Below, piece after piece: positions 10,709 to 26,474 of a stretch of 64,000 nt of DNA. Under the pieces are notes generated by a model. It was given only the letters and a program-made list of their open reading frames with translations, searched no databases and was not told the origin of the DNA. Numbering within the stretch: the first letter of the stretch is position 1; each line of letters begins with the position of its first letter. This DNA is from Kineosporia succinea (GTDB taxonomy: Bacteria; Actinomycetota; Actinomycetes; Actinomycetales; Kineosporiaceae). The stretch covers positions 7,375,241-7,439,240 of the forward strand of contig NZ_JAUSQZ010000001.1 of assembly GCF_030811555.1 (NCBI RefSeq), given 5' to 3'. The position numbers and the translations under genes are program-made.

Positions 10709-10893
10709 GGTTCACCGTAGGCGAGGGCGTTCACGGGCGCCCGCCCGGACCACGACGGCAGGTGGGTGACCGTCCGACGCCGGCCCGACGCGTCCTGGAT
10801 CGCCCCTGCGGGTGACGCACACCGGTCGATCTTGCTCGGGTCCCGTCACGGCCGACAACTGACGGGGGTGCAGTAGGACGCCCGTGTCTTGCA

Positions 10894-10927
10894 CCAGGGT
10901 CGAAGGTCGGGGCCCCAGGGTCGAAGG
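10894..10927. promoter_or_regulatory. Direct repeat upstream of the GGDEF-EAL gene
   Basis: CCAGGGTCGAAGG occurs at 10894-10906 and 10915-10927, a 21-bp period (two turns), ending 13 bp before the start codon. It could be an activator or repressor site, or a simple local duplication. Confidence 0.35.
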
Positions 10928-10940
10928 ACGGGATCGGTCG

Positions 10941-13055
10941 ATGGAAATCGGGTGCGGCGTGCTCGCCGCGGTGCTGCTGGCGGTGGCCGTCCGGCTGCTG
11001 GTGGTACGAACCGGGACGGGAGAGAACTTCCGGCGCTGGATCCTGGGCGCGGTGTCCGTGATCGCGGCCGCCGGCCTGGTCGCGTCGGGACTGGACGTCC
11101 TGGGCCTCCCGGGGGCCGCGCTGGTCTTCCCGCTCGGCGCCGGTCTCGGCTGCCTGGGCCTCTACCACGCGCTGATCCTGTGGATGCAGGCCTTCACCGG
11201 CACCCGGGCCACCAGCGAGAACGCCAACACCGCCGGGGCCCTGCTGGTCGTGATGGCGATGGGCAACCTGGCGGGCTCCGGATCGGGGCTCTGGCAGCTG
11301 CAGGCCGGCCTGTTCGCGGCCGGGGCGGCGGTCGTCGCGCTCGGCGCCTCGCTGTGGATCGCGGTGCAGGCCGGGCTGACCGGTGACCGGCCGATGCGGG
11401 TCACCGTGCTCGCGGCCATCACCTTCGCGGTCACCGGGTCGCTGGCCCTGGTGTTCCCGGAGGCCGCCCGCACCGCGATCGTGCCCGCCTGGCTGCTGGG
11501 CGCCCTGGTCCTCGCGGCGCCCGCGGCCCGGCCGGGAAACGTCCCGCGCTCGGGCGCCGCGGTGGCCCTGAACCGTCCCTCGATCTACGGGTCGCTGCTG
11601 GTGCTCGCGGCCGGGCTGGTCACGCTGGCCGTGCAGGCGGTGGTGCGGGGTGAGTCCGGTGGAGTCGTGGTCGTGCTGGTCACCGGTGGGGTGCTGCTGG
11701 CCGGGCACCGGATGGTCGCGATGGTCGGCGATCTCACCGACCTGACCCGCACCCGGCAGGAGGCCCTGACCGACGAGCTCACCGGCGTCGCCAACCGGCG
11801 CTCGTTCCTGGCCGCCGTGGACACCGCGGTCGAGCTCGGCGGGCCGGTGTCGCTGCTGATCATCGACCTCGACCGGTTCAAGGAGGTCAACGACCGCTAC
11901 GGCCACGCTACCGGCGACGAGCTGCTGCGGCACGTGACCCGCGCCTTCACCCGGCGGCTGCCGCCGCACGCCCGGCTGGCCCGGCTGGGCGGCGACGAGT
12001 TCGCCGTGCTGGTCGAGGACACCTCACTGATCCCGGCCGTCGGCGTCGCCGAGCAGCTGCTGGAGGCGCTGACACCGCTGCGGCAGGACGGGCCCGGCGG
12101 GCGGGCGCTCGAGGTCGGGGCCAGCATCGGCGTGGCCCGGCTGGAGCCCGGGCTGATGGACGCCGGTGAGCTGCTGCGCCGGGCCGACGTGGCGATGTAC
12201 CAGGCCAAGGTCGCCGGGCTCGGGGTGCGGGCGTACGACCGGGGTCTGGACACCGCGGTGCGCGAACGGCGGCAGTTGCTGGAAGAACTCCGGGTGGCTC
12301 TGCACCCGGACGCGCCGGAGCAGATCGTCGTGCACTTCCAGCCGCAGGTGGACGCGTGGAGCGGCGAGGTCGTGGGGGCGGAGGCCCTGGTGCGCTGGCA
12401 GCACCCGCGGCTGGGCCTGCTCTACCCCGACCGCTTCCTCGACCTGGCCGAGGAGCACGGGCTGATGCCCGCGCTGACGCACCGGGTGCTGCACAGTGCC
12501 GTCGCGAGCAGCCGCGACTGGCGGGAGGAGGGCCGGGAGCTGCGTGTCTCGGTGAACCTCTCCCCCTCGTGCCTGACCGACCCCCGGCTCCTGCCGACGA
12601 TCGACGCGCTCCTGCTCGACGGCGAGATCCGGCCCGACGAGCTGATGCTCGAGGTCACCGAGACCTCGCTGATGACGAACCAGGACGAGGCGCTGGCCGC
12701 CCTGCGCGCGATCAGCCGCCGCGGGGTCGGCCTGAGCATCGACGACTACGGCACCGGGTTCTCGTCGCTCAGTTACATGAACATCCTGCCCGCCACCGAG
12801 CTCAAGATCGACCGCTCGTTCACGGTGCGCGTGGTCGAGGACGAGCGCACGGCCGCCATCGTGGCCGGCACCGCCGAGCTGGCGCACCGCCTGGGCATGC
12901 GCCTGGTGGCGGAGGGCACCGAGGACGTCGCCGCCCTGCACCGGGTGCGCGAGCTCGGCTGCGACATCAGCCAGGGGTACCTGCACAGCCGGCCGCTGGC
13001 CCCACCGGCCTTCCGGGAGTGGCTGGGCCGGCAGCGGGCCGAGGCCGCCGTCTGA
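10941..13055 (+). CDS. Membrane GGDEF-EAL protein (c-di-GMP synthesis/degradation)
   Basis: A 704-residue protein: N-terminal set of about eight helices (residues 1-255), GGDEF domain (about 275-435) and EAL domain (about 445-700). The cyclase site is intact (ARLGGDEFAVLVED), but the RxxD inhibitory site five residues upstream is absent. The EAL domain keeps GAEALVRW, the Glu of LEVTET, the SIDDYGTG pair, the Lys of ELKIDRSF and the Glu of VAEGTE, so phosphodiesterase activity is expected. ATG 10941 follows AAGGACGGGA. Its stop is 22 bp from that of the convergent chemoreceptor. Confidence 0.93.
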   Translation: MEIGCGVLAAVLLAVAVRLLVVRTGTGENFRRWILGAVSVIAAAGLVASGLDVLGLPGAALVFPLGAGLGCLGLYHALILWMQAFTGTRATSENANTAGALLVVMAMGNLAGSGSGLWQLQAGLFAAGAAVVALGASLWIAVQAGLTGDRPMRVTVLAAITFAVTGSLALVFPEAARTAIVPAWLLGALVLAAPAARPGNVPRSGAAVALNRPSIYGSLLVLAAGLVTLAVQAVVRGESGGVVVVLVTGGVLLAGHRMVAMVGDLTDLTRTRQEALTDELTGVANRRSFLAAVDTAVELGGPVSLLIIDLDRFKEVNDRYGHATGDELLRHVTRAFTRRLPPHARLARLGGDEFAVLVEDTSLIPAVGVAEQLLEALTPLRQDGPGGRALEVGASIGVARLEPGLMDAGELLRRADVAMYQAKVAGLGVRAYDRGLDTAVRERRQLLEELRVALHPDAPEQIVVHFQPQVDAWSGEVVGAEALVRWQHPRLGLLYPDRFLDLAEEHGLMPALTHRVLHSAVASSRDWREEGRELRVSVNLSPSCLTDPRLLPTIDALLLDGEIRPDELMLEVTETSLMTNQDEALAALRAISRRGVGLSIDDYGTGFSSLSYMNILPATELKIDRSFTVRVVEDERTAAIVAGTAELAHRLGMRLVAEGTEDVAALHRVRELGCDISQGYLHSRPLAPPAFREWLGRQRAEAAV

Positions 13056-13077: not shown

Positions 13078-14685
13078 TCAGATCCGGAACCGCCGCACCA
13101 CGTTCTGCAGTTCGCGCGCCGAGGCGTCGAGCTCCCCGGCCGCCGCCCCGACCTGGGCCAGCTCGGCCGACGTGCGCTCGGTGGCCCGGGCCACCAGCCC
13201 CACGTTGGCCGCGATCTCGCCGGAGCCGTCGGCGGCGCCCGCGACGTTGCGGGTCATCTCCGCCGTCACTGCGGTCTGCTCCTCCACCGCCGCCGCGATG
13301 GTGTTCTGGTAGGTGCTGATGTGGTCGATCACCTCGGTGATCTCGCTGATCGCGGCCACCGCGGCGCCGGTGTCGGCCTGGATGGTCTGCACCTTGTGGA
13401 CGATGTCGTCGGTCGCCTTGGCGGTCTCGTGCGCCAGTTCCTTGACCTCGTTGGCGACCACGGCGAACCCCTTGCCCGACTCCCCGGCCCGGGCGGCCTC
13501 GATCGTGGCGTTCAGCGCGAGCAGGTTGGTCTGCTCGGCGATCGCGGTGATGGCCTGCACCACGGTGGCGATCTCGGCCGACGCCTCGCCCAGGCGTCCC
13601 ACCACCTGGCTGGTGCTCTCGGCGCTGCCGACGGCCTGCGCGGCGACCCGGGCGGCCTCGGTGGCGTTGGTCGCGATCTCCTGGATGGCCGCGCCCATCT
13701 CCTGGCTGCCCGCCGCGACCGTCTGCACGTTGGCGGACACGTCGTCGGCCGCGGACGCGACCCGGCCCGCCTGCTGGGCACTCTCGTCGTTGCTGGCCGC
13801 CAGGCTCGCCGCGGTACCGGTCAGGCCGGACGACAACGACGTCAGCGTGGTCGACGCCTGGGTCAGGGCGTGCACGGCGGCCCGGGTGCTGGCGACCGCC
13901 TCGTTGAGCGCGGCGTCGGCGGTGGCCACCTCGTCACGGCCCTGCGGCGTCGGGGTGTGGGTGAGGTCGCCGTCCGCGACCCGGCGCAGCGATCCGACCG
14001 TGCGGCTGAGGGGCCCGGTGATGCTGCGGGTGACGACGTAGGCGAGCAGGGCGGCCAGCCCGATCGCGATCACCAGCACCGTGACCACCAGGGCCCGCAC
14101 GGTGCGGGCACTACTCGCGGCGTCGGCGCGCTCCCGCGCCGTGCGCTCGTTCACCGACGTCACCAGGGAGCCGGTCTGTTCCAGGATCTTGCTGTAGCTG
14201 CTGTAGCCGACGTCGAGGATCTCGGCGTCCCCGGCGGCCAGGTCGCCCCGCCGGAACAGGCCCGCGGCCTTGTCGTCGGAGGCGAAGTAGGCGGTCCAGT
14301 TCTGCGAGAGCGCCTCGAACGTGGCCCGTTCCGAGGCCGTGGCCGATCCCAGTGGGAAGGCCTCGAGGAATGCCAGCAGCTTGGCCTTGTCGGCGAGGAA
14401 CCCGGCCCGGTTGGGCGAGTCGTCGGCCAGCGGGTTCCTCACGCCGGGGCGGCGGGTGTCCCAGGCGTAGGCCACCTGCCAGCCGGAGATGTCGGCGTTG
14501 TAGAACGAGATCGTGTCGATGGCCTGCACCAGGTCGCTGAGGTGCTCGACCCGGGTCGCGGACGCCCGCTGTCTCGACTGGCCGACCAGGGCCGCACCGG
14601 TCGCCGTGGTCAGCAGGAGCACGACCACCGCGAAGGCTGTCCCCAGCCGGGTCCCGATGCGGACATTGCGCAACTGCATCAGCAC
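13078..14685 (-). CDS. Methyl-accepting chemotaxis protein
   Basis: A 535-residue transmembrane chemoreceptor. An N-terminal helix (about 12-35), an extracellular four-helix-bundle sensor (about 36-185) and a second helix (about 187-210) lead to a HAMP domain ([23 protein letters not shown]). The signalling tip is [19 protein letters not shown] followed by [14 protein letters not shown]. It should couple a small-molecule signal to CheA/CheW; no other che gene is in the window. GTG 14685 sits five bases after GGAGG; ATG 14679 is the alternative. A chemoreceptor suggests a motile cell or motile spore. Confidence 0.95.
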
Positions 14686-14876
14686 GTGTTCCTCCCCCGA
14701 GGCGCCGGCCCGGCGGGCACGGCACCCGTTGTTGTTCGGGACCGGGGCGCCGGAGTTGAGCGCGCGACGTCAAGGACCCTCCGGCGATTGAGGGACGCTT
14801 CGACGCACTTGCGTCTCTTTCGTCACAGTTCTCGAGTCAAGCTGGGTTCGATCCACCTGTCCCCGCGGAGGTGCGC

Positions 14877-15611
14877 GTGACCAGTTTTCGTCTCCGGGAC
14901 CACCGGCACCGGCCCCAGGAGGTCCTGACGATCAGGGTCGCCTCGGGCCCGGACGACGAGATCGCCGTGCGGGCCCTCGACGACGCCGCCTTCCCGGCCG
15001 GTCAGGACGACGTGGTCCGGGCCGACCCGGGTGAGCTGGAGGAGGGGGTGGCCCGGGGTGACATCCACGTCCTGCAGCGCGGCGACGCGATCGCCGCGTA
15101 CGCCCATCTCGACAGCTCCGATCCCGGGCACGTCTACATCGCGGGATTCGCCGTGCACCCGGACGTGCAGTCGGCCGGGCTCGGCAGTTACATGATCGGG
15201 CGCCTGATGCACGACCGGCGCGACGAGCTGAACCGCATTCCGGTGACCGCGGTGTCGTCACCACACAATCACGCGATGGCGAGTCTTCTGCTGCATCACG
15301 GATTCGCGGTGCGCTGGGCCCTGCGGGACTTCTTCGGACCCGGTGTCGACCGCTACGGATTTCAGCTCCGCCGAACGCCCCATCGGCCACCGGAAAACGG
15401 GTTTCCGGGAAGAACCGAAGTGGTCTCCGCCGACCGCCCGGACACGCTATTCTCACTCGTCGCGGGCGAGGGAATGGTGGCCCGTGAACTGATCCGGACC
15501 GACTCGGGGCCGACGTTCGTGCTGTCCGCGCCGTATCCCGACGAGTTCCTGCCCTGTGCGCCACCGGGAAGCGGAAAGGACGCCGCGCAGATGGGGACAC
15601 CCGGCACCTAG
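14877..15611 (+). CDS. GNAT-family N-acetyltransferase
   Basis: A 244-residue protein with one GNAT domain in the first two-thirds: YIAGFAVHPDVQSAGLGSYM carries the acetyl-CoA pyrophosphate loop (Q/R-x-x-G-x-G/A variant), followed by NHAMASLLLHHGFAVRW. The last 70 residues are extra and of unknown role. GTG 14877 was chosen because GGAGG lies five bases upstream; the GTG at 14871 would overlap that ribosome site. The substrate is unknown. It lies between the chemoreceptor (divergent) and the methyltransferase cluster (same strand, 98-bp gap). Confidence 0.85.
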   Translation: MTSFRLRDHRHRPQEVLTIRVASGPDDEIAVRALDDAAFPAGQDDVVRADPGELEEGVARGDIHVLQRGDAIAAYAHLDSSDPGHVYIAGFAVHPDVQSAGLGSYMIGRLMHDRRDELNRIPVTAVSSPHNHAMASLLLHHGFAVRWALRDFFGPGVDRYGFQLRRTPHRPPENGFPGRTEVVSADRPDTLFSLVAGEGMVARELIRTDSGPTFVLSAPYPDEFLPCAPPGSGKDAAQMGTPGT

Positions 15612-15709: not shown

Positions 15710-16552
15710 ATGGTTCCCATCGATGCGCAGGCCACTGAGACAACTGACGATTCCGTTGTCACCGGAGAATGGCTTCGCCACAACGAAGACGTGGCCTGGA
15801 AAGACTTCGAGCCGTCGGCCTACTGGCACCACAACTACGCGTCCCTGCGTGAAGACGACCGGGCCATTCTCGAGCACGTCGGTGGATTCTTCTCCGAGTA
15901 CCACCGCGAGCACCCACGCGTCGCCGGGGGGCCGCGCGTGACCGGCATCGACGTCGGCTCCGGCTCGAACCTGTACCCGGCGCTGGCCATGCTGCCCTGG
16001 GCCGACGAGATCCTGCTCACCGACCACTCCCCCTCGAACGTCGCCTGGCTACGCGGCGCACTGGCCGGGCAGCAGCCCGACACCGACGCCGACGGCGCCT
16101 GGGTGTGGCTGCCGTTCTGGGAGACCCTGCGTGCCTACGACGGTTACGACGCGGCCACCGACCCGCGCCGGGAACTCACCCGGCGGTGCTCGGTCGAGCA
16201 GCGCGACGTCTTCCAGCTCCAGGCCGACGGCCGGTTCGGCATCGGCACCATGTTCTTCGTCGCCGAGTCGCTCACCTCCTACGAGAACGAGTTCGAGGAG
16301 GCCACCGAGCACTTCCTGCGGTCGCTGGCTCCCGGTGCCCCGTTCGCCGCCGCCTTCATGGACAAGTCGCTCGGCTACGTCGTGGGCGACAAGTCGTTCC
16401 CCGCCGTGCGTGAGGTCGACTCCCTCCGCGTCGACGTGACGCTCCGGCAATTCGGGGCGAAGGCGCGGGTCACCAAGATCCCGGTGCCCGGCAACGACCC
16501 GCTGCGCGACGGGTACGACGGCATGATCATCGCCGTGGGAACCACGGCATAG
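15710..16552 (+). CDS. SCO2525-type SAM-dependent methyltransferase
   Basis: A 280-residue class I methyltransferase. The SAM-binding motif I is VTGIDVGSGSNLYPAL, motif II acidic strand ILLTDHSPSN, and FFVAESLTSY is the post-I region; the layout resembles the NNMT/PNMT/TEMT group. It is first in the run methyltransferase, SCO2524-type, SCO2523-type, SCO2522-type, the order I recall for the SCO2525-SCO2521 families of Streptomyces. The substrate (protein, lipid or small molecule) is unknown. The next gene starts 33 bp downstream. Confidence 0.85.
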   Translation: MVPIDAQATETTDDSVVTGEWLRHNEDVAWKDFEPSAYWHHNYASLREDDRAILEHVGGFFSEYHREHPRVAGGPRVTGIDVGSGSNLYPALAMLPWADEILLTDHSPSNVAWLRGALAGQQPDTDADGAWVWLPFWETLRAYDGYDAATDPRRELTRRCSVEQRDVFQLQADGRFGIGTMFFVAESLTSYENEFEEATEHFLRSLAPGAPFAAAFMDKSLGYVVGDKSFPAVREVDSLRVDVTLRQFGAKARVTKIPVPGNDPLRDGYDGMIIAVGTTA

Positions 16553-16585
16553 TCCGAAACCACTGCTGGGGATGGTGCTTCGCCG

Positions 16586-18454
16586 ATGCTGCTCGAACCC
16601 CGTGACCAGATCCTCGACATCTGGCGCGCGTCGCTGCGCTACTCCTACCGCACCGGCGAGTGGAACTGGGCCGGCAACTCGATCAGCGACGCCGAGCAGC
16701 TGCTGTGCATCCTCTACCCGGCCACCGCCGTGCCCACCCTGGGGTTCGACCAGCCCGACCTGATGGGCGAGGACGTCGCCGCCGTCCTGCACCCGCTGGG
16801 CAACCAGCTCGAGGCGCCCCGCACGATGATCACGCTGCTCATCCAGTACATGCGGACGTACACCGACGAGGTGGGCAACCCGACGTTCCGGGCCGGCAGC
16901 TACATCGACCCGGAAGAGGTCACCGGGGCCGGGGCCGTCACCACCGGCGAGCAGCGCGACCTGGAGATCGTCGACTCGTACTCGATGTCGGTCTCCCTGT
17001 GCCTGGCCGTGCTGGGATTTCTGCAGGCGTTCCGCGAGGGGGTGCGCAGCCGGGCCCTCCTGGCCCAGATCGAGGAGCTGCGCGGGCTCACGTCGCACCG
17101 GCTGACCGGGGCCCTCACCGGCCTGCTGCGCAGCTTCTCGGTGCACGTCTTCGAGATCGACTCGCTCGCCGGGCAGAGCCTGCTGCGCAACGTGAACCAG
17201 GCGCGGGAACCCGACCGGATCGTCGCCGACCGGCTGTCCCGCGAACTCGACGACATCCGCGGCCGCCTGCGGGGCGACGTCACCATCGGATCCGGCGTGG
17301 TGGCCGACGAGCTCGACAACCGGGCGCGGCTGTTCGAGTGCGGCTGGTCGTGGGGCGTCATCAAGGGCGCGGCCGGGGTCTCCTACACCGACGAGGTCAC
17401 CACCCAGCCCCCGGGGGTCGCCGAGGACCGGCCCTACCTGTACTTCACCGGCGTCGCGCTCGACGGCATCGAAGACCTCTTCAGCCGGCGCACCCAGATC
17501 CTCGGCCTCCTCGACGACGTGCAGCTGCGGGCGGCCCAGGCTCTGCGTCTGCGCTACGACCTGACCCTCGCCTTCTGGACGCGGGTCGCCACCACCGGCT
17601 CCACCGGCCCCGCCCGGATCGCCGTGGAAGACGTCCCCTGGCGTACCTCCGACGGCGTCGAGTCCGAGTACTACACGCTGTTCGTCACCTCGATGGTCGT
17701 CCAGCAGCTGGCCGACGACCCGGCGAGCGCACCGTTGCTGTCGCGGATGGCCCGGATCATGGAGCACCTGGCCGACCGCGGGCGCATCACCAGCCGCCCC
17801 GTCACCCGCAGCCCGGTCAGGTCCGAGGACCAGGCGCTGCGCCTGCACGAGCCCGGTGAACGACTCACCCTCCGCGGCACGGAAGAGCTTGGCTCCCGGC
17901 AGGTCTGGCGGATCGCGAACTACTCCTCGCTGCTGTTCAAGCGCGCGGTGCGGATCTCCGGGCTGCTGGCCGACGTCGAGCAGCGCGACGCCATGCTGCG
18001 GCTCAGCGACACCCTCATGCAGCACCTGCAGGCCCGGCGGCTGACCGAGGGCGACGGCACCGGCCTGTGGGACCAGCTCTCCCCCGCCCTGCCCATCACC
18101 CTGTCCGAGAAGCAGCCGCCGTCCTGGTACCACACCGAGCGCGTCATCGAGGGCCTGGTCACCGCGGCCGGCATGCTCACCGAGGACCTGCCGCCCAGCC
18201 CGGCGCTGCTGCCGCTGGCCACCGACCTGCTCGCCGAGGCCGAGAACATCTTCGCGCAGGAGAAACTCGCGGGCACCCGCACCCAGGGCCACGCCGTGCG
18301 GGTCTCGTTCGACTCCATCGAGAAGCACCTCGAGCGGGCCCGGCTGCTGCTGCGCCGCCGCCCGGGCACGTCTCTCACCCTGGTGCAGGGTGTGCTGCGC
18401 GAGCTCGACGGCCTGGCGATGGCCCGGCAGGGTCCCGGGCGCGGTACGGCATGA
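16586..18454 (+). CDS. SCO2524-type protein, large helical, unknown function
   Basis: A 622-residue protein without signal peptide or membrane helix and rich in predicted alpha-helix. It begins with an aromatic-rich conserved-looking segment (ILDIWRASLRYSYRTGEWNW, then CILYPATAVPTLGFDQPD). No enzymatic motif is recognisable. Placement between the methyltransferase and the P-loop protein gives the family call. Its TGA overlaps the ATG of the P-loop gene (ATGA), suggesting a complex or fixed stoichiometry with it. Confidence 0.75.
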   Translation: MLLEPRDQILDIWRASLRYSYRTGEWNWAGNSISDAEQLLCILYPATAVPTLGFDQPDLMGEDVAAVLHPLGNQLEAPRTMITLLIQYMRTYTDEVGNPTFRAGSYIDPEEVTGAGAVTTGEQRDLEIVDSYSMSVSLCLAVLGFLQAFREGVRSRALLAQIEELRGLTSHRLTGALTGLLRSFSVHVFEIDSLAGQSLLRNVNQAREPDRIVADRLSRELDDIRGRLRGDVTIGSGVVADELDNRARLFECGWSWGVIKGAAGVSYTDEVTTQPPGVAEDRPYLYFTGVALDGIEDLFSRRTQILGLLDDVQLRAAQALRLRYDLTLAFWTRVATTGSTGPARIAVEDVPWRTSDGVESEYYTLFVTSMVVQQLADDPASAPLLSRMARIMEHLADRGRITSRPVTRSPVRSEDQALRLHEPGERLTLRGTEELGSRQVWRIANYSSLLFKRAVRISGLLADVEQRDAMLRLSDTLMQHLQARRLTEGDGTGLWDQLSPALPITLSEKQPPSWYHTERVIEGLVTAAGMLTEDLPPSPALLPLATDLLAEAENIFAQEKLAGTRTQGHAVRVSFDSIEKHLERARLLLRRRPGTSLTLVQGVLRELDGLAMARQGPGRGTA

Positions 18455-19371
18455 TCGTCTTCGCCACGTCCGACAAGGGCGGCACCGGCCGGTCGGTCAC
18501 CAGCTGCAACCTGGTGTACCAGGCCGCGCTGCGTGGGCTGAACGTCGGCTACCTCGACTGGGACTTCGGATCTCCCACCGCCGGAGCCATTTTCGGTGTC
18601 GACTCGCTGAACCGGGGCACCCGCTCCGGGCGCGGCCAGCACGCGTACTTCCTGGGGCAGGTGCTCGAGCCGGAGACCGTCGATATCTGGGCCGCCTCCG
18701 ACCGCAACAGCCTGCGGCACCGCCCGCCCGGCAGCGGGCGCATGGAGCTGCTGCCCGGTGACGAGGGCCAGGGCGAGTTCCGGGTCGGCGAGGGCCCGAT
18801 CGTGCAGCGCGCCCTCGACATCCTGCGCTGGGCCCAGAACGAGTACGACCTCACCGTGGTCGATCTCAGCGCCGGCCGCTCCTACGCCCTGCGCATGGCC
18901 CTGACCGCCACCCGGCCGGACGAGAACGTGGGCCGCTCCCGCTGGCTCGTGTTCCACCGCTGGACCATGCAGCACCTGACCGCCGCCCACGGCCTCGTGC
19001 ACGGCGCCCAGGGCCTGCTCGACACCGGCACCAAGGTCGGCCACGACCGCGAGGACCTGCTCGACCGGATCCGGTTCGTGCGCACCGCCATCATCGACCC
19101 GAACGCCCCCGACCTGCGCGGCCTGCGCACGTCCCAGCTGTCGTGGCTGAGCGAGCGCAACGCCGAACTGCACCTGCGCGCGCGGGAACTCGAGCTCGGA
19201 GCCCGGTGGGTGCTGGGCAGCATCCCGGTCGACCCGGTGTTCCAGTGGCACGAGCAGCTGCTCACCAGCAGCGACCTGTACGGCCGGGAGACCGCCAACA
19301 AGGTCACCGTCGACGCCCTGCACGACCTCTCGCTGGCCGTGCTCGACGACGACGCCTGGGAACCCCGGTGA
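18451..19371 (+). CDS. SCO2523-type MinD/ParA-like protein with variant P-loop
   Basis: A 306-residue protein of the SIMIBI (MinD/ParA) class. The deviant Walker A motif appears as SDKGGTGRSVTS: the signature Lys is kept but the P-loop Lys is replaced by Arg. The switch I-like acidic motif is YLDWDFGSPTAG and the Walker B-like strand YDLTVVDLSAG. Such proteins usually dimerise around ATP and bind membranes or partner proteins; the Lys-to-Arg change may allow binding with weak hydrolysis. It overlaps its neighbours at ATGA (start) and GTGA (stop), so it sits at the centre of a co-translated trio. Confidence 0.85.
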   Translation: MIVFATSDKGGTGRSVTSCNLVYQAALRGLNVGYLDWDFGSPTAGAIFGVDSLNRGTRSGRGQHAYFLGQVLEPETVDIWAASDRNSLRHRPPGSGRMELLPGDEGQGEFRVGEGPIVQRALDILRWAQNEYDLTVVDLSAGRSYALRMALTATRPDENVGRSRWLVFHRWTMQHLTAAHGLVHGAQGLLDTGTKVGHDREDLLDRIRFVRTAIIDPNAPDLRGLRTSQLSWLSERNAELHLRARELELGARWVLGSIPVDPVFQWHEQLLTSSDLYGRETANKVTVDALHDLSLAVLDDDAWEPR

Positions 19372-20327
19372 GCGCCACCGGCGAGTTCCACCAGACCGAG
19401 GCCGAGCCCCGCACCCGGGCCCTGGCCATGTCCCACCTGTCGGTCGAGGTCGGTCACCTCTACCTCGAAGACCTCCTGGCCGGGCCCGAGCGCCTGCGCG
19501 AGCAGTTCACCGAGGTCGGGCGCTGGCTGCAGACCGCCCGGGCCTCGGTCCCGGCCCCGAAACCCCGCATCAGCACCTGCTTCCTGATCGACGACTACTT
19601 CTCCCCCGACCTCGGCGATCCGGGCGAGGTGATCACGATGATCACCTCGGCCGCCACCGAGGCCGGCGTCCCGATCGACTACCTGGCCCGCGAATCCGCC
19701 TGCGCCCTGGTGCGAGGCCCGACCGGGCCGGTCAGCCCGGCCCAGCAGCTCGTCGACGCGCTGGTCGTCGAACCGCCGCCACACACCACCGGCGGGCGCC
19801 CACCGGTCACCCAGTCGGGGTGGCTGAGTAACGGACGCCGCTCGCCCGGCGCCGACGACGGCTCGGCGATGAGTGTGGTCACCTGGGAACCACCGGAACA
19901 GACCACCGCGCGCGGGCATTCGGTGTTCGTCGACGTCGAGCTGTGGAAGGACGAGCCCGGCGGGCGGCGCTGGTCGTGCGCGCTGCTGGCCGCGGCCTGG
20001 CAGTGGCTGCGGCTGGGGCTGCCGCGCTACCAGGGCCAGCCGCTGGCCGAGCCCGAGCCGGTTCCCGACCACTGGCCCGCCCGCTGGGGCGACCTGCCCG
20101 GCGTCCTGCGCCTGGACGACCGCGCCGCCCCGTTCACCGCGCAGCGCACCCTGTCGATCATGTCGTCGCGATTCCTGCTGGTGGAGGCCGCGGTTCGTAC
20201 CGTGCTCGACCAGGTCTGGCAGGACCCCGAGGCCGCCCGCCTGATCGCCGACGGCGCCGCCCGCGAGGGCCTGACGCTACCGGCCGACGCTCTGGCCCGC
20301 GTCGGGTATGTCCTCGTCGGGCCCTGA
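19368..20327 (+). CDS. SCO2522-type protein, unknown function
   Basis: A 319-residue protein without membrane helices. Distinct segments are ISTCFLIDDYFSPDLGDPGE near residue 65, a Trp-rich middle, and MSSRFLLVEAAVRTVLDQVW near the C-terminus. I recognise no catalytic domain. GTG 19368 overlaps the stop of the P-loop gene. The last 51 bp (20277-20327) overlap, on opposite strands, the 3' end of the convergent two-TM gene. Confidence 0.75.
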   Translation: MSATGEFHQTEAEPRTRALAMSHLSVEVGHLYLEDLLAGPERLREQFTEVGRWLQTARASVPAPKPRISTCFLIDDYFSPDLGDPGEVITMITSAATEAGVPIDYLARESACALVRGPTGPVSPAQQLVDALVVEPPPHTTGGRPPVTQSGWLSNGRRSPGADDGSAMSVVTWEPPEQTTARGHSVFVDVELWKDEPGGRRWSCALLAAAWQWLRLGLPRYQGQPLAEPEPVPDHWPARWGDLPGVLRLDDRAAPFTAQRTLSIMSSRFLLVEAAVRTVLDQVWQDPEAARLIADGAAREGLTLPADALARVGYVLVGP

Positions 20328-21362
20328 CAGGTCGATCTCGGCCACGAAACCGTCTTTCGCGCTGCCGAGCAGGTGCCCGCGGTGGTTGCGGCCGCCGGCG
20401 ATCTGCAGCGAGGTGTCGGGGTCGGGCAGCGAACCGGCCACGCGCCACAGCTCTTCGAAGCGCTCGCGGTGGCTGTCGAGACGGTGCTTCTCCTGCACCA
20501 GGCGGGTGGTGATGATGACCGGCTGCACCGCGTTGGTGATGCGGCTGGCCCGGGTGGTCTCGTAGGCCAGCACGTCGTCGAACACGATGAAGTCGCTGAC
20601 GTGGTCTTTCAGGCGCTCGGGGGTGTTGGACTCGTCGATGCCGCGGATGTCGACCCCGGCCTCGCGCTGAAGACGCTGCACCCGCAGGAAGTTCGGGTCG
20701 CTGGCGAACTCCGGGGCGTCGAACACGAAGATGCGCCGGATGGCCACGCCACGGCGGGCCGCGGCGCGCTGGATCTCGAGGTAACGGGCCCCGAGGTCGG
20801 TCAGCCAGAGGCCGCCCTCGAAGCCCTTGCCGCCCGCGTCGACCGTGACCAGGCTGGTGGCGACGATCGACCGGCGGGCGCTCTTGGCCAGGGCCAGCAG
20901 GTACTCCCGGTCTTCGCCGTCGTAGTAAACCTCCTCGCCGGCACCGAGCGTGCGCAACAGCCGGGAGACCCGCTCGACCTCCTCGGCGGCCAGGCGGTTG
21001 ATCAGGTCGGGACTGCGGGTGCTGAGACGCCCCGCGTGGAGCAGGAACTCGTTGAGCACCTCGGACTGCAGCGCCGACTGCTCGATCATGCGGGAGGCGG
21101 AGCTGCGCTCGATGCGCTTGAGGCCGTCGCCGAACTCGGTCTGGGCCTGGCTGAACTCGCCCAGCAGCTGCGAGATCAGGGTGACCCCGCCGACCAGGAA
21201 GGCCATGATCAGCTGGTCGCCGACGTTGTTGTTGAGCACCTCCTGCAGCATGTTCGAGGCGACGAAGGTGGCCCCGCCGACCACCGCGGCGACCGTGATG
21301 CGGCGCAGGGTGCGCAGTTCGGCGCTCGGCGGGCGGGACGGCGGGCTGGTCGGCGAGGACAT
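20277..21362 (-). CDS. Two-TM protein with a possible PLD-like cytoplasmic domain
   Basis: A 361-residue protein. A short Ser/Pro-rich N-terminus is followed by two membrane helices (about residues 24-43 and 50-68), a coiled region, then a soluble domain of about 200 residues. Strings such as EEVYYDGEDREYLLALAKSA and RYLEIQRAAARRGVAIRRIF resemble HKD-less phospholipase D-like domains; that fold call is a weak inference. The ATG overlaps the stop of the upstream SCO2521-type gene (TGATG), so it belongs to the cluster by coupling. It could anchor the soluble cluster proteins at the membrane. Confidence 0.65.
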   Translation of the reverse strand: MSSPTSPPSRPPSAELRTLRRITVAAVVGGATFVASNMLQEVLNNNVGDQLIMAFLVGGVTLISQLLGEFSQAQTEFGDGLKRIERSSASRMIEQSALQSEVLNEFLLHAGRLSTRSPDLINRLAAEEVERVSRLLRTLGAGEEVYYDGEDREYLLALAKSARRSIVATSLVTVDAGGKGFEGGLWLTDLGARYLEIQRAAARRGVAIRRIFVFDAPEFASDPNFLRVQRLQREAGVDIRGIDESNTPERLKDHVSDFIVFDDVLAYETTRASRITNAVQPVIITTRLVQEKHRLDSHRERFEELWRVAGSLPDPDTSLQIAGGRNHRGHLLGSAKDGFVAEIDLSGPDEDIPDAGQSVGR

Positions 21363-22387
21363 CAGGGCTCTCCCACTCGCGACGGACGGGGACGCTGGCG
21401 GACCGCCTGTTCCACGGCGGCGAGGGCGATCTGGTCGCGGACCCGGCTGACGGCCGAGGCCCACTGCGCGCTGAGACCGGAGACCCGGTCGGCCTCGGCC
21501 CGCAGCTCGGCCAGGACCGGACCGAGCCGGGCGCCCGGGAGCCAGGCATGGATCAGGTGGTCGACCGCGGGGGCCAGGGTGGCCACCACCGCCGACCGGT
21601 CGGCCCGGCCGATGCCCGCCCGCTCGATCAGCCCGAGCAGTGACGACAGCAGCCAGTCGTGCAGGGCGATGTCGAGACACAGCTCGTCGGCCTGCGGCAT
21701 CACCTCGGGCGGGACGCGGACCAGCAGGGTGTGCACCGCCCGGCTGCGGAGCGTGAAAACCACCGAGGGAGTGCCGGTCTCGGGAACCGCGACCCAGCGC
21801 AGCCGGGTCTGCTCGGGGCGGTAGGTCTGGAGCCGGTCGAGCCGGGCCGAGCCGCGGATCTGGTTGAGCCGGTGCACGCTCGGGCCGCCCAGGTCGAGCA
21901 CACCCCCGGAGGCGGCCGGCTCGGCGAAGAACGCCTCAGCCAGCTCGGCCGCCCGCACCGGGCCCCAGGTCTCGACCGTGCCCGGCTGCGCGAGGTAGTG
22001 CGACCAGGGCAGGCGGCGCTTCTGACCGGCCACCCGCAGACCGGTGCGGGTGTGAGCCTGCACGACCTGGCCGCCGGTGACCCGCACCTCGGTGCTGACG
22101 GTGCCGACCCCGCGCAGCCGGCGGCCGACCGCCGAGGGCATCCAGCAGTCGACGCCGGTGAAGCTGTGCGGGGCCGCGACGTGGGCGACCGGACGTTCCC
22201 AGCGGCGGGGCGGACGGCCCGGGCCGGGGGTGAGCAGATCGGCGGTGGCGTCCGAGGGCAGCGGCCCGGAGTGCGGCAGCAGCCCGGTGCGGATCTCGCC
22301 GAGCGCCAGGACCGGGCCCGCCACGTCGACGGACACGGACAGCGCGGGGGTGCCGAGGGCCGGCTTCGGCTGACTCGTGACTGACAT
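21362..22387 (-). CDS. SCO2521-type protein, unknown function
   Basis: A 341-residue soluble-looking protein; the first two-thirds is beta-rich (ALSVSVDVAGPVLALGEIRT; VVFTLRSRAVHTLLVRVPPE) and the C-terminal third helical (HDWLLSSLLGLIERAGIG). ATG 22387 has GGGGGG about six bases upstream. It is transcribed away from the PL9-like gene and is coupled to the two-TM gene. The family name rests on its position beside the SCO2522-2525 set and on memory, so treat it as provisional. Confidence 0.6.
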   Translation of the reverse strand: MSVTSQPKPALGTPALSVSVDVAGPVLALGEIRTGLLPHSGPLPSDATADLLTPGPGRPPRRWERPVAHVAAPHSFTGVDCWMPSAVGRRLRGVGTVSTEVRVTGGQVVQAHTRTGLRVAGQKRRLPWSHYLAQPGTVETWGPVRAAELAEAFFAEPAASGGVLDLGGPSVHRLNQIRGSARLDRLQTYRPEQTRLRWVAVPETGTPSVVFTLRSRAVHTLLVRVPPEVMPQADELCLDIALHDWLLSSLLGLIERAGIGRADRSAVVATLAPAVDHLIHAWLPGARLGPVLAELRAEADRVSGLSAQWASAVSRVRDQIALAAVEQAVRQRPRPSRVGEP

Positions 22388-22724
22388 GCGGCCCCCCAAC
22401 CCATGTTCGCCTGCCCGACGATGGTAACTCGCGGTGCCACCACCGAGCAGGAGTCTGGAAAGGGGATCGGCCGATCCCCGCAGGTTTCGGGATCGCGTCG
22501 ACACCAATTGATGCAAATGGATCGCGGAATTTTCAGGAACTCGAAAGTTGCGGGCAACCTTTTCGGCACAACGAAAACTTGATGTCCGGAACTCGTTCGC
22601 CTAACCGAAGAATCAGCGGCCCGGCCTACGCTCTCGAACTCGTCATCCCGCCGGAATCATGAACCGCACCGACCCTCGGCTTCTGAATTCTGCGCCTGAA
22701 CAGCAGAAAGGGCACCCGCCCCTC
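22388..22724. other. AT-richer divergent promoter region
   Basis: This 337-bp gap separates the SCO2521-type gene (minus) from the beta-helix gene (plus). Base composition drops clearly around 22495-22590, as in a promoter. It holds the dyad at 22542-22565 and a TACGCT at 22627-22632 that could be the -10 of the plus-strand gene. No gene is evident. Confidence 0.5.
22542..22565. promoter_or_regulatory. Imperfect dyad, candidate operator
   Basis: Arms CGAAAGTTGC and GCAACCTTTTCG surround a GG centre; the inner GTTGC-GG-GCAAC is perfect and the outer parts pair with one extra base. It lies in the AT-rich divergent region and could serve either flanking gene. Confidence 0.4.
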
Positions 22725-24092
22725 ATGAGTAGGCAACGCAAACGGCTCGTCCCGATCCTCTCGGTCACCGCCGTGCTGGCGGCGGGGGCCGCCACCGCGC
22801 ACGCCGTGAACCCGGGCGCGACCACGACGTCCACCGCCGCCTCCACGACCGTGGCGACCACCGCGTCCACCATCGCCGCCGCGGCCACCGGCACCACCTA
22901 CTACGTGGCCCCATCGGGCAGCGACAGCGCCGCCGGCACCGCGGCCGCGCCGTTCCGGACGATCGCGTTCGCCCAGTCGAAGGCCGTCGCCGGCGACACG
23001 GTCTACTTCCGCAAGGGCACCTACGCCTACACCGCGGCGAACAAGGCCTGCTCGAGCCAGACCGCGCTGGTCGACGCGATCACCCTGAACAAGAGCGGCA
23101 GCGCGGGCAAGACGATCACCTACGCCGCCTATCCGGGCGAGACGCCGGTGTTCGACTTCTCGGCGATGAAGGACGACTGCCGCATCAAGGGTTTCAACGT
23201 CACCGGCAGCTACGTGAACGTCAAGGGCCTGGAGATCAAGGGCGTCCCGCAGAACAACACGAAGAATCACGAGTCGTGGGGCGTGTACGTCACCGGCAGC
23301 AACAACACGTTCGAGCAGCTGAACATTCACCACATCATGGGCGCCGGCCTGTTCATCAAGGACGGCGGCGGGAACCTGGTGCTCAACAGCGACTCCCACG
23401 ACAACTACGACCTCTACACCTCCAACGGTGCCGGTGAGAGCGCCGACGGGTTCGGTGCGCACATCCCGGCCGGCAAGCCCGGCAACGTGTTCCGCGGCAG
23501 CCGCGCCTGGAACAACGCCGACGACGGCTTCGACCTGATCAACGCGTTCTCGCCGGTCACCATCGAGAAGTCGTGGGCCTGGTCGAACGGCTACGTGCCG
23601 GGCACCACGACCGCGGCGGGCAACGGCAGCGGCATCAAGGCCGGCGGCTACGGCGGCGTGTACTCGGCGGCCGCGGTCAAGCACGTCGTGCGCTACTCGG
23701 TCGCGTTCAACAACCGGGCGGCGGGCTTCTACGCCAACCACCACCCGCTCGCGCTCGACTTCTCGCACAACACGGCCTACAACAACAAGCCGAACTACAA
23801 CATGCTCGGCATCACCTCCTCGGGCGCCGCGACCGGCCTGGGCACCCTGACCGACAACATCGCCCTCGGCGGCACCCTGACCAGCAACATGACCGGCACC
23901 ACGCAGAAGAACAACTCGTGGAACCTGAGCCCGGCGGTCTCGAGCAGCGACTTCCAGAGCCTGAGCACCACCGGGTGGGACGCGGCCCGGCAGGCCGACG
24001 GCAGCCTGCCGGTGCTGACCAGCCTGCGGCTGAAGTCGACCAGCCCGCTCTACGGCAAGGGCAGCGACTCGGGCAACATCGGGGCCTTCTGA
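22725..24092 (+). CDS. Secreted beta-helix polysaccharide lyase-like protein (PL9-type)
   Basis: A 455-residue secreted protein with a Sec signal (RKRLVPILSVTAVLAAGAA..AHA) and a Thr/Ala-rich linker, then a right-handed parallel beta-helix. TYYVAPSGSDSAAGTAAAPF is the usual entry to such lyases, and SADGFGAHI...NADDGFDLINAF matches the region of PL9 pectate lyases that carries the calcium-binding acidic residues. Likely cleaves pectin-type polysaccharide. ATG 22725 gives a clean signal peptide; an in-frame ATG at 22659 also exists. It ends at a strong hairpin terminator. Confidence 0.8.
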   Translation: MSRQRKRLVPILSVTAVLAAGAATAHAVNPGATTTSTAASTTVATTASTIAAAATGTTYYVAPSGSDSAAGTAAAPFRTIAFAQSKAVAGDTVYFRKGTYAYTAANKACSSQTALVDAITLNKSGSAGKTITYAAYPGETPVFDFSAMKDDCRIKGFNVTGSYVNVKGLEIKGVPQNNTKNHESWGVYVTGSNNTFEQLNIHHIMGAGLFIKDGGGNLVLNSDSHDNYDLYTSNGAGESADGFGAHIPAGKPGNVFRGSRAWNNADDGFDLINAFSPVTIEKSWAWSNGYVPGTTTAAGNGSGIKAGGYGGVYSAAAVKHVVRYSVAFNNRAAGFYANHHPLALDFSHNTAYNNKPNYNMLGITSSGAATGLGTLTDNIALGGTLTSNMTGTTQKNNSWNLSPAVSSSDFQSLSTTGWDAARQADGSLPVLTSLRLKSTSPLYGKGSDSGNIGAF

Positions 24093-25391: not shown

Positions 25392-26429
25392 TCAGTGCGG
25401 TGCGAAGGTGATGTGCCCCGCCTCCCGCCGCCCCTGAGCGAGACCGGCCCGCGCCGAGGGGATCCGGTTCGCGGGGTCCATCTGATCCGGGCCCATCGCG
25501 GCCCAGGACTCGGCGTCGGGCGTGATCACGTCGACGTGAGCGCCCTGGCCGCGCAGCAGCTCGACCTGGCTGGGCAGGTCGGTGCCCCAGGCCGCCTCCC
25601 GCCGGATGCCCTCGAACTGGCCGTCCTGCGGTGCGGGCGCCGGGCCGCCGAACGGCGCGAGCACCAGCACCTTCGCGTAACCGGCCGCCAGATCGGCGTT
25701 CTCGGCCGAGCGCACCCCACCATTCACATAATGGACGCCGTGGACGGCATGGGTGGGCCCCGCCCCTGGGAGGGCGGTGCTGGCGGTCACGGCATCGGCC
25801 AGGTCGACGCCGGAACGGCGGTCCAGCGGCGCCAGTTCACCGGTGTGCGCGTTGACGGCCACCGCGATCATCGGCCGCTCGGCCCACTCCTGACGGGGAA
25901 GCCGGGACGCGACCAGGGCCCGCCGCCGCTCGGAGACCTCCGGGCCGAACCGGGCGTCGCTCTCCAGGGCGAAAGCGCCCAGATTCCGCTGCAGTTCGGC
26001 CGCCGAGGTCGCGGCGGCGCCGATCTCGCGCAGCCGTTCGAAGACCGCGAGCATCGGCGAGGGACCGGCCTGCCCCGGGGAACCCGCCTGACCCTGGCGA
26101 CCGGGCTGGCCCTGCAGGCCGGGCTGACCTTGGAGACCCGCCTGCCCCTGGCGACCGGGCTGACCCTGGCGACCGGGCTGACCTTGGCGACCGGGCTGTC
26201 CCGGCCGGCCCGTGGCAACCGGCTGGGTCAGGATCGACGCCAGCAGTTCGGCGACCGGGACGCCGCTGCGGATCCACGCGGCCGAGGTGGAGCCGGAGGA
26301 CGTGCCGATGACCAGGTCGGCACCGGCGATGTCGTGACCGGCCTCGGTCAGGCCGGCGATGACGCCGATCTGCCAGGCCTGCCCGGAGGCTCCGCCGCCA
26401 CCGAGCACGAGCGCATGGGAATGGTTCAT
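25392..26429 (-). CDS. Patatin-like protein with collagen-like insert and altered dyad
   Basis: A 345-residue patatin-family protein. The oxyanion loop GGGGASG and nucleophile elbow GTSSGS (Ser) are intact. The family's catalytic Asp, normally in DGG, is Asn here: [21 protein letters not shown] collagen-like insert of 16 G-x-y triplets lies between the nucleophile helix and the next helix. Patatins hydrolyse phospholipids with a Ser-Asp dyad, so this copy may be inactive or a binding protein. ATG 26429 is preceded by AAAGG at eight bases. A 20-codon ORF with a strong ribosome site lies just upstream. Confidence 0.8.
26067..26210 (-). repeat. Collagen-like G-x-y minisatellite in the patatin gene
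   Basis: 144 bp encoding 16 uninterrupted G-x-y triplets, mainly GQP, GRQ, GLQ and GQA, built from a degenerate 18-bp unit. The unit length preserves frame. The segment would be a flexible or triple-helix-prone loop projecting from the patatin core. Confidence 0.85.
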
Positions 26430-26474
26430 GGTAGTCACCTTTCGGAGTGCCTGAGGTTTCGGCGCTCCCGGCGA

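Follow-up and report, generated by a model that had tools for sequence, protein, structure and literature searches.

We analyzed a stretch of 64,000 nucleotides from Kineosporia succinea (the window), which lies on a single contig of 8.07 Mb, NZ_JAUSQZ010000001.1, and which carries at positions 15710 to 22387 a cluster of genes of the SCO2521 to SCO2525 families together with a gene for a protein with two transmembrane helices (the two-TM protein). We propose that SCO2521, SCO2522, SCO2523, and SCO2524 form the core of a regulated effector system of the biological-conflict type in actinobacteria, acting in defense against invaders or in controlled cell death, and we judge the proposal to be evenly balanced between right and wrong. 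We arrived at it because the core is constant, its membrane or STAND nucleoside triphosphatase (NTPase) partner is exchangeable, the cluster is patchy within a genus, and the modifying enzymes are optional; such an anatomy is best known from conflict and cell-death systems. Sensing, restraint of the effector, an effect on the membrane, and a role in defense are what we infer from it.

A scan of named genomes yielded 422 relatives, of which the best 80 were kept as named loci, a choice that leans towards the query. SCO2521, SCO2522, SCO2523, and SCO2524 were each found in 80 of the 80, an association beyond chance, and thereby constitute the invariant core, so the first-pass annotation was right to treat the locus as one conserved, uncharacterised system. 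The hosts were Micromonosporaceae, Streptosporangiaceae, Pseudonocardiaceae, Frankia, Nocardia, Streptomycetaceae, and others. The two-TM protein was seen in 58 of the loci, the methyltransferase in 42, and an N-acetyltransferase of the GNAT type in 21, some of the stretches ending at contig ends; the methyltransferase and the two-TM protein are thus not core. The arrangement of the window was the commonest (23/80), with the methyltransferase, SCO2524, SCO2523, and SCO2522 forward and the two-TM gene and SCO2521 reversed. Gene orders were derived from stop-to-stop open reading frame (ORF) starts, and some of them, such as SCO2522 before SCO2523, are artefactual.

In the window, the genes of the unit are as follows:

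14871-15611 (start codon unsettled), forward strand: GNAT N-acetyltransferase, probable accessory seventh gene (Pfam Acetyltransf_1, 32.3 bits against a cut-off of 20.7)
15710-16552, forward strand: SCO2525-family S-adenosylmethionine (SAM) methyltransferase, accessory (NCBIfam NF040568, 276.7 bits, cut-off 240)
16586-18454, forward strand: SCO2524-family protein of 622 residues, core (NF040567, 734.3 bits, cut-off 300)
18451-19371, forward strand: SCO2523 variant MinD/ParA-like P-loop protein, core (NF040564, 400.6 bits, cut-off 200)
19368-20327, forward strand: SCO2522-family protein with a GTG start, core (NF040566, 381.4 bits, cut-off 200)
20277-21362, reverse strand: two-TM protein with a C-terminal DUF6879/pseudo-phospholipase D domain, putative effector at the exchangeable position
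21362-22387, reverse strand: SCO2521-family protein, core, usually adjoining the exchangeable gene (NF040565, 286.7 bits, cut-off 150)

All six genes from the methyltransferase to SCO2521 were present where they had been placed by the first-pass annotation, and five of the six proteins pass the curated NCBIfam cut-offs of the SCO2521 to SCO2525 families. The names of these families state no biological role, and they omit the two-TM protein, the GNAT, and the exchange described below. The two-TM protein gave only chance-level matches to NCBIfam and passed no cut-off there. The overlaps read from the letters (ATGA at 18451-18454, GTGA at 19368-19371, and TGATG at 21364-21360 on the minus strand) agree with the coordinates, and the two transcripts do meet in the middle of the cluster, their 3' ends overlapping by 51 bp (20277-20327). 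The window SCO2524 protein had no Pfam match and no recognised domain, and the SCO2524 profile gave a weak match in the PDB, to YacP, over 80 residues (E 0.0045). A predicted model of SCO2522, built from 66 of the 80 SCO2522 loci plus the window, reached a predicted local distance difference test (pLDDT) score of 87.6 and had no match at E≤0.001 when compared with the PDB by Foldseek. Nothing useful was obtained from PDB searches with profiles of the two-TM protein, SCO2522, and SCO2521.

We determined whether the two-TM gene travels with the core by searching 394 genomes of the class, which were taken as the same draw in the SCO2524, two-TM, and channel-like scans. A two-TM gene (E≤1e-10) was detected in 32 of 37 SCO2524 carriers and in none of the 357 non-carriers; the two-TM and channel-like scans scored at most 5-6 candidates per genome, so weak or second copies may escape. 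A profile search of 38 carrier genomes returned 34 matches, one of which (in genome G524) was weak and outside the cluster. The gene lies mostly beside SCO2521, reversed together with it in 28 of the 58 named loci that have it and forward in the other 30. Because of this restriction to carriers we consider that the two-TM protein belongs to the system. It had been described as an addition to the cluster, with the proviso that the six genes would not be one system if it and SCO2521 were absent elsewhere or if the genes did not co-occur. Its strict co-occurrence with SCO2524 carriers speaks against such a refutation, and the two-TM gene proves to be a usual member and not an addition peculiar to the window.

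The gene is exchanged for others behind the same core. Among 109 distinct loci, the occupant was the two-TM gene in 83, a channel-like gene in 12, a DUF4062-NACHT gene in 10, a NACHT-FGE gene in 1, and a gene for a GNAT fused to a multi-TM region (GNAT-TM) in 1, with none seen in 2. Thus 24 of the 26 loci without a two-TM gene hold a substitute, which in 23 lies beside SCO2521; 10 of the 26 were read gene by gene and the others by similarity to those ten. The DUF4062-NACHT-HEAT gene encodes 1,387-1,453 residues in the eight loci in which a start was found, all of which have it between SCO2522 and SCO2521. When the proteins of loci L101 and L153 were compared with Pfam, DUF4062 and HEAT_2 were above the cut-off in both, while the NACHT domain scored 44.3 bits in L153, above its cut-off of 26.7, and 24.6 bits in L101, just below it. 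The locus of Planotetraspora thailandica (L133) combines NACHT (44.1 bits) with an FGE-sulfatase domain (144.1 bits). These substitutes of relatives resemble bacterial NACHT proteins, with the NACHT domain joined to DUF4062 or FGE; such a protein is absent from the window. Matches to "NACHT" of about 90 residues in many other loci were rejected, as they stem from an overlong ORF in L101 antisense to SCO2521.

The channel-like protein has 273-297 residues, two C-terminal membrane helices, and a pore-like stretch. In its full length it was found in 4 of the 394 genomes, and these were exactly 4 of the 5 carriers without a two-TM gene. A further 28 genomes had weak matches to about residues 146-240 of the profile only; at L175-L182 and similar places, open frames mostly of about 500 residues share just this middle part. 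The remaining type of occupant was seen in a Nocardia locus (L148), where the channel-like gene is reduced to a remnant and a GNAT/multi-TM fusion (10889-12139, forward strand) stands between SCO2523 and SCO2522.

Close relatives capture the exchange. In Planotetraspora thailandica and P. mira (L168), the core is 83% identical in DNA and the upstream side 82-87%, and the two loci diverge just after SCO2521, where one has the NACHT-FGE gene and the other the two-TM gene; similarity returns further on, over 394 bp at 76%. The Nocardia loci L141 and L148 are 85-96% identical except for the extra GNAT-TM gene and the mostly lost channel-like gene in L148. In the SCO2524 tree, support was found for a set of channel-type loci that also takes in the GNAT-TM locus (Shimodaira-Hasegawa-like approximate likelihood ratio test, SH-aLRT, 100) and for a set of NACHT-type loci (SH-aLRT 99); six changes were needed in all. 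The tree was of a quick kind without bootstraps and carried a long-branch warning, the window being among the long branches, and ten of the first 38 loci had been excluded from it (eight duplicated named loci and two were cut by contig ends). Together these comparisons show that the putative effector gene is exchanged behind a constant core. It is conceivable that the place beside SCO2521 is a mere insertion hot spot whose occupants have no connection with the core, as they are unrelated in sequence and two loci show no occupant at all. We regard this as quite improbable, since the two-TM and full-length channel-like proteins are confined to core carriers and never occur together in the 394 genomes, and since in Nocardia one membrane gene has decayed where the other was gained.

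We next asked what the two-TM protein of the window might do. A model predicted from 57 sequences (56 of the 58 two-TM loci plus the window; pLDDT 84.4) has helices at residues 14-38 and 47-95 and an alpha/beta domain at 145-308. Foldseek comparison with the PDB gave 95 matches at E≤0.001 (best E 3.3e-8), and the matches listed, the best 50 of 752, were mostly phospholipase D proteins and included Nuc, Zucchini, PLD3, FAM83, F13, and a TrmBL2 domain. TM-scores by target length were 0.70 for Nuc, 0.55-0.61 for FAM83 and Zucchini, and about 0.40 for TrmBL2; whole-model TM-scores were low, about 0.3, because the phospholipase D domain makes up less than half of the model. The only Pfam cut-off passed by the window protein was that of DUF6879 (PF21806; 24.6 bits, gathering score 23.9), and the domain matched 56 of the 57 members at E≤0.01. 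Catalytic phospholipases D carry the motif HxKxxxxD. In the two-TM family, with the register assigned by us from the conserved Asp, all 57 sequences have Asp where the catalytic Lys would stand; at the His position 56 of them carry Leu, Val, Met, Ile, or Thr and one has a gap. The predicted structure and the alignment thus show a phospholipase D fold without its catalytic motif.

Non-catalytic folds of this kind can act in the binding of proteins or ligands, as in FAM83 and TrmB. The two-TM domain has its fold in common with FAM83/DUF1669 and TrmBL2 and is tied to DUF6879 by the family-wide match; unlike the known phospholipase D pseudo-enzymes, it is fused to two N-terminal membrane helices, and among the 394 genomes the two-TM/DUF6879 protein was confined to carriers of the cluster. 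A lipid-active membrane machine, in which the two-TM protein would be a phospholipase D acting on lipids, would accord with the fold and the membrane helices; with the HKD residues lost we set phospholipase activity aside and consider such a machine highly improbable. The same loss makes the first-pass suggestion of examining lipids a weak lead, and lipid chemistry is an unlikely role for the cluster as a whole.

SCO2523 passes its family cut-off and has an N-terminal P-loop, as expected from its description as a variant MinD/ParA-like protein; its match to Pfam CbiA (25.4 bits) lies at the cut-off of 25.4. In MinD and ParA the Walker A consensus is KGGxGK[ST], and this deviant Walker A carries a signature Lys. 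The SCO2523 motif is SDKGGTGRSVT; all 109 sequences compared have Arg (R14) at the Walker A Lys position and retain the signature Lys (K9). SCO2523 therefore shares the P-loop and signature Lys of the MinD/ParA/Mrp SIMIBI NTPases but departs from their consensus, and the change to Arg is present whatever effector type the locus holds.

The two enzymes of the window locus appear to be optional. The methyltransferase matched Pfam PF01234 (NNMT/PNMT/TEMT) with 33.3 bits against a cut-off of 25, and its SAM motif residues D81, G83, and G85 were intact in 63 of 63 sequences. It was unseen in 38 of the 80 named stretches and was not found in 12 of the 15 whole genomes searched (15 of the 38 carrier genomes were taken), and so it is accessory and not core. 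In Frankia sp. QA3 (L118/L059), GNAT-like and methyltransferase-like ORFs were observed about 8 kb from the core; a search of that genome with the methyltransferase family found none, and what lies there may be a remnant. ORF clustering of the window and 38 loci placed a GNAT ORF near the cluster, on either strand, in 28 of these 39 stretches. The GNATs of the window and of L077 fell outside that ORF cluster and were tied in by pairwise similarity: the window GNAT is weakly similar to the clustered GNATs (32-33% identity over 100 residues, best E 2e-8) and shows a closer likeness to others, being 37% identical to the GNAT neighbor in L077 (E 9e-39) and 36% identical over 191 residues to the GNAT half of the Nocardia GNAT/multi-TM fusion (E 6.5e-28). 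It matched no NCBIfam model, while the Streptomyces-type GNAT is RimI-like, so two types may be involved. The GNAT profile included the window's own protein, which makes its match there uninformative, and GNATs are common, so part of the similarity may be general family likeness. From these comparisons the window GNAT gene probably belongs to the unit.

A PNMT-like methyltransferase with an intact SAM motif and a GNAT neighbor could also point to a tailoring cluster, in which the two enzymes modify a metabolite, a small molecule or peptide, that the core makes or exports. We find this improbable. Neither enzyme is core, none of the six window proteins was recognized as belonging to a synthetase or transporter family (no search was made for genes of small peptides), and the exchange of the gene beside SCO2521 would be left unexplained.

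The distribution of the cluster is patchy. SCO2524 carriers numbered 4 of 149 genomes of the phylum and 37 of 394 of the class. Within a Streptomyces-like genus (g6), placed with named Streptomyces in the SCO2524 tree, SCO2524 passed the cut-off in 20 of 121 genomes, a 21st match being weak; in the family to which the window belongs, 2 of 13 genomes had SCO2523 above its cut-off. On these counts the cluster is patchy even inside one genus.

The literature on these genes is sparse. In the accessible portions of the papers that name SCO2521-2525, the genes appear in passing and no description of them as a system was found; other names or journals that are not covered could hide one. According to the accessible text of one paper (PMC11472566), sco2521-sco2526 form a single operon within the HupS regulon, and S. 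coelicolor requires SCO2525 to grow normally; in the corresponding portions of two others, SCO2525 is termed morphogenetic (PMC6344877) and Gehring et al. 2004 is cited for it (PMC3017869). These statements, together with the pairing of a MinD/ParA-like protein with a membrane protein, favor the main rival of our proposal, a developmental or cell-envelope signaling module in which, as hyphae grow, the P-loop protein would place or switch a membrane complex, with the two-TM protein as anchor or receptor and the methyltransferase for tuning. We assign this module a low but appreciable probability. It sits poorly with the presence of SCO2524 in so few genomes of genus g6 and with the frequent lack of SCO2525 in the named stretches and whole genomes, and it is hard to see how a DUF4062 STAND NTPase or an FGE protein could replace the two-TM protein as an anchor. 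The first-pass annotation had suggested a membrane-localised assembly or signaling machine. The P-loop protein and the membrane component are indeed present and the signaling part of that suggestion is partly right; an assembly machine leaves unexplained why the two-TM protein is replaced by STAND NTPases or a channel-like protein, and signaling in conflict or suicide fits better.

We therefore return to the regulated effector system. In our model, the core, including the MinD/ParA-like protein without the Walker Lys, would sense a signal and restrain an effector whose exchangeable gene lies mostly beside SCO2521. The effector of the window would be the two-TM protein, its DUF6879 domain serving as a trigger for the membrane part that responds to the binding of a ligand or partner. 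In relatives it would be the channel-like two-TM protein, the DUF4062-NACHT-HEAT STAND NTPase, or the NACHT-FGE protein, and in the one Nocardia locus the GNAT and multi-TM fusion elsewhere in the cluster. On activation, the effector would disturb the membrane or bring the cell to a halt in some other way. The optional methyltransferase and GNAT would probably adjust the trigger through modification of a component or a small molecule, and the growth phenotype of SCO2525 could be the outcome of a mis-set trigger.

Several observations weigh against this model. The place of the effector gene varies: L066, L069, and L075 have the two-TM gene between SCO2523 and SCO2522, L067 has it ahead of SCO2524, and the NACHT gene is on the outer side of SCO2521 in L156 and L170. 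Two loci, L163 and L074, have no visible substitute. L074 has a pentapeptide-repeat-like gene 2.5 kb further on; downstream of that cluster (13865-15169 and 16149-17141, forward strand) we observed regulator-like and pentapeptide-repeat-like genes with N-terminal hydrophobic stretches, whose NCBIfam matches were below the cut-offs. The stretch that differs between the two Planotetraspora loci measures 4.8 kb in P. thailandica and 2.5 kb in P. mira, so more than one gene differs, and independent replacements are few, about four, two of them in single loci. The likeness of the channel-like protein to two-TM ion channels is putative: its best Pfam match, Ion_trans_2, was below the cut-off (14.7 against 22.5 bits for L136, residues 205-281) and reached E≤1 in 4 of the 11 members aligned (of 12 loci; best E 0.022), the GxGD motif was not invariant in that alignment, and its profile matched no PDB chain. 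No such protein is present in the window.

Further points concern the proposed role. The core proteins have no known sensor domain. A search of PADLOC-DB 2.0.0 gave one chance-level match for the six window proteins (SCO2523, E 0.033) and one weak match for seven proteins of relatives (RT_UG22, E 3e-4). The SCO2524 family had no match in 72,556 plasmid and 50,697 phage records, and its tree, on our reading, was mostly grouped by family, so the cluster is not obviously mobile; one cluster, in Sphaerisporangium (L119), nonetheless sits on a sequence whose title calls it a plasmid. Finally, the growth and morphogenetic role of SCO2525 and the control by HupS, as far as the accessible parts of those papers describe them, also suit a developmental role.

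Among described systems, a close comparison is with NTP-dependent conflict systems of multicellular prokaryotes such as vWA-MoxR-VMAP. As presented in the accessible part of Kaur et al. 2020 (PMC7159879), these are regulated multi-gene systems with varied effectors, among which are predicted-inactive MinD/ParA-like domains and FGE (FGS) domains; in that part of the paper SCO2521-2525 are not named and this core is not described. The present cluster differs from the vWA-MoxR/VMAP ternary systems in that none of the six window proteins has a vWA or MoxR match in Pfam.

Two neighboring features of the window were also observed. A secreted-looking protein, beta-helix-like by eye (22659-24092, forward strand), directly adjoins SCO2521; it had no match in 38 related loci and, by this comparison, seems unrelated to the cluster. 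Further on, a patatin-like ORF, again by eye (25392-26438, reverse strand), has a Gly-rich, collagen-like insert of GQxGxQG repeats in the middle of the protein.

A bolder form of the proposal, which we advance tentatively and consider somewhat less likely than not to hold, is that the cluster serves filamentous actinobacteria as a so far undescribed system of immunity or programmed death. Its four-protein core, built around a MinD-like pseudo-switch, would guard interchangeable effectors (the pseudo-phospholipase D two-TM protein, the channel-like protein, and the STAND NTPase), a single sensor architecture thus leading to membrane collapse in some species and NLR-type signaling in others. 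If our proposal is right, five numbered families without a stated role would become parts of a defense or cell-death system with a testable effector, and the swap between a membrane protein and a NACHT NTPase behind the same core would offer a route to what the core senses and to how one regulator drives different effectors.

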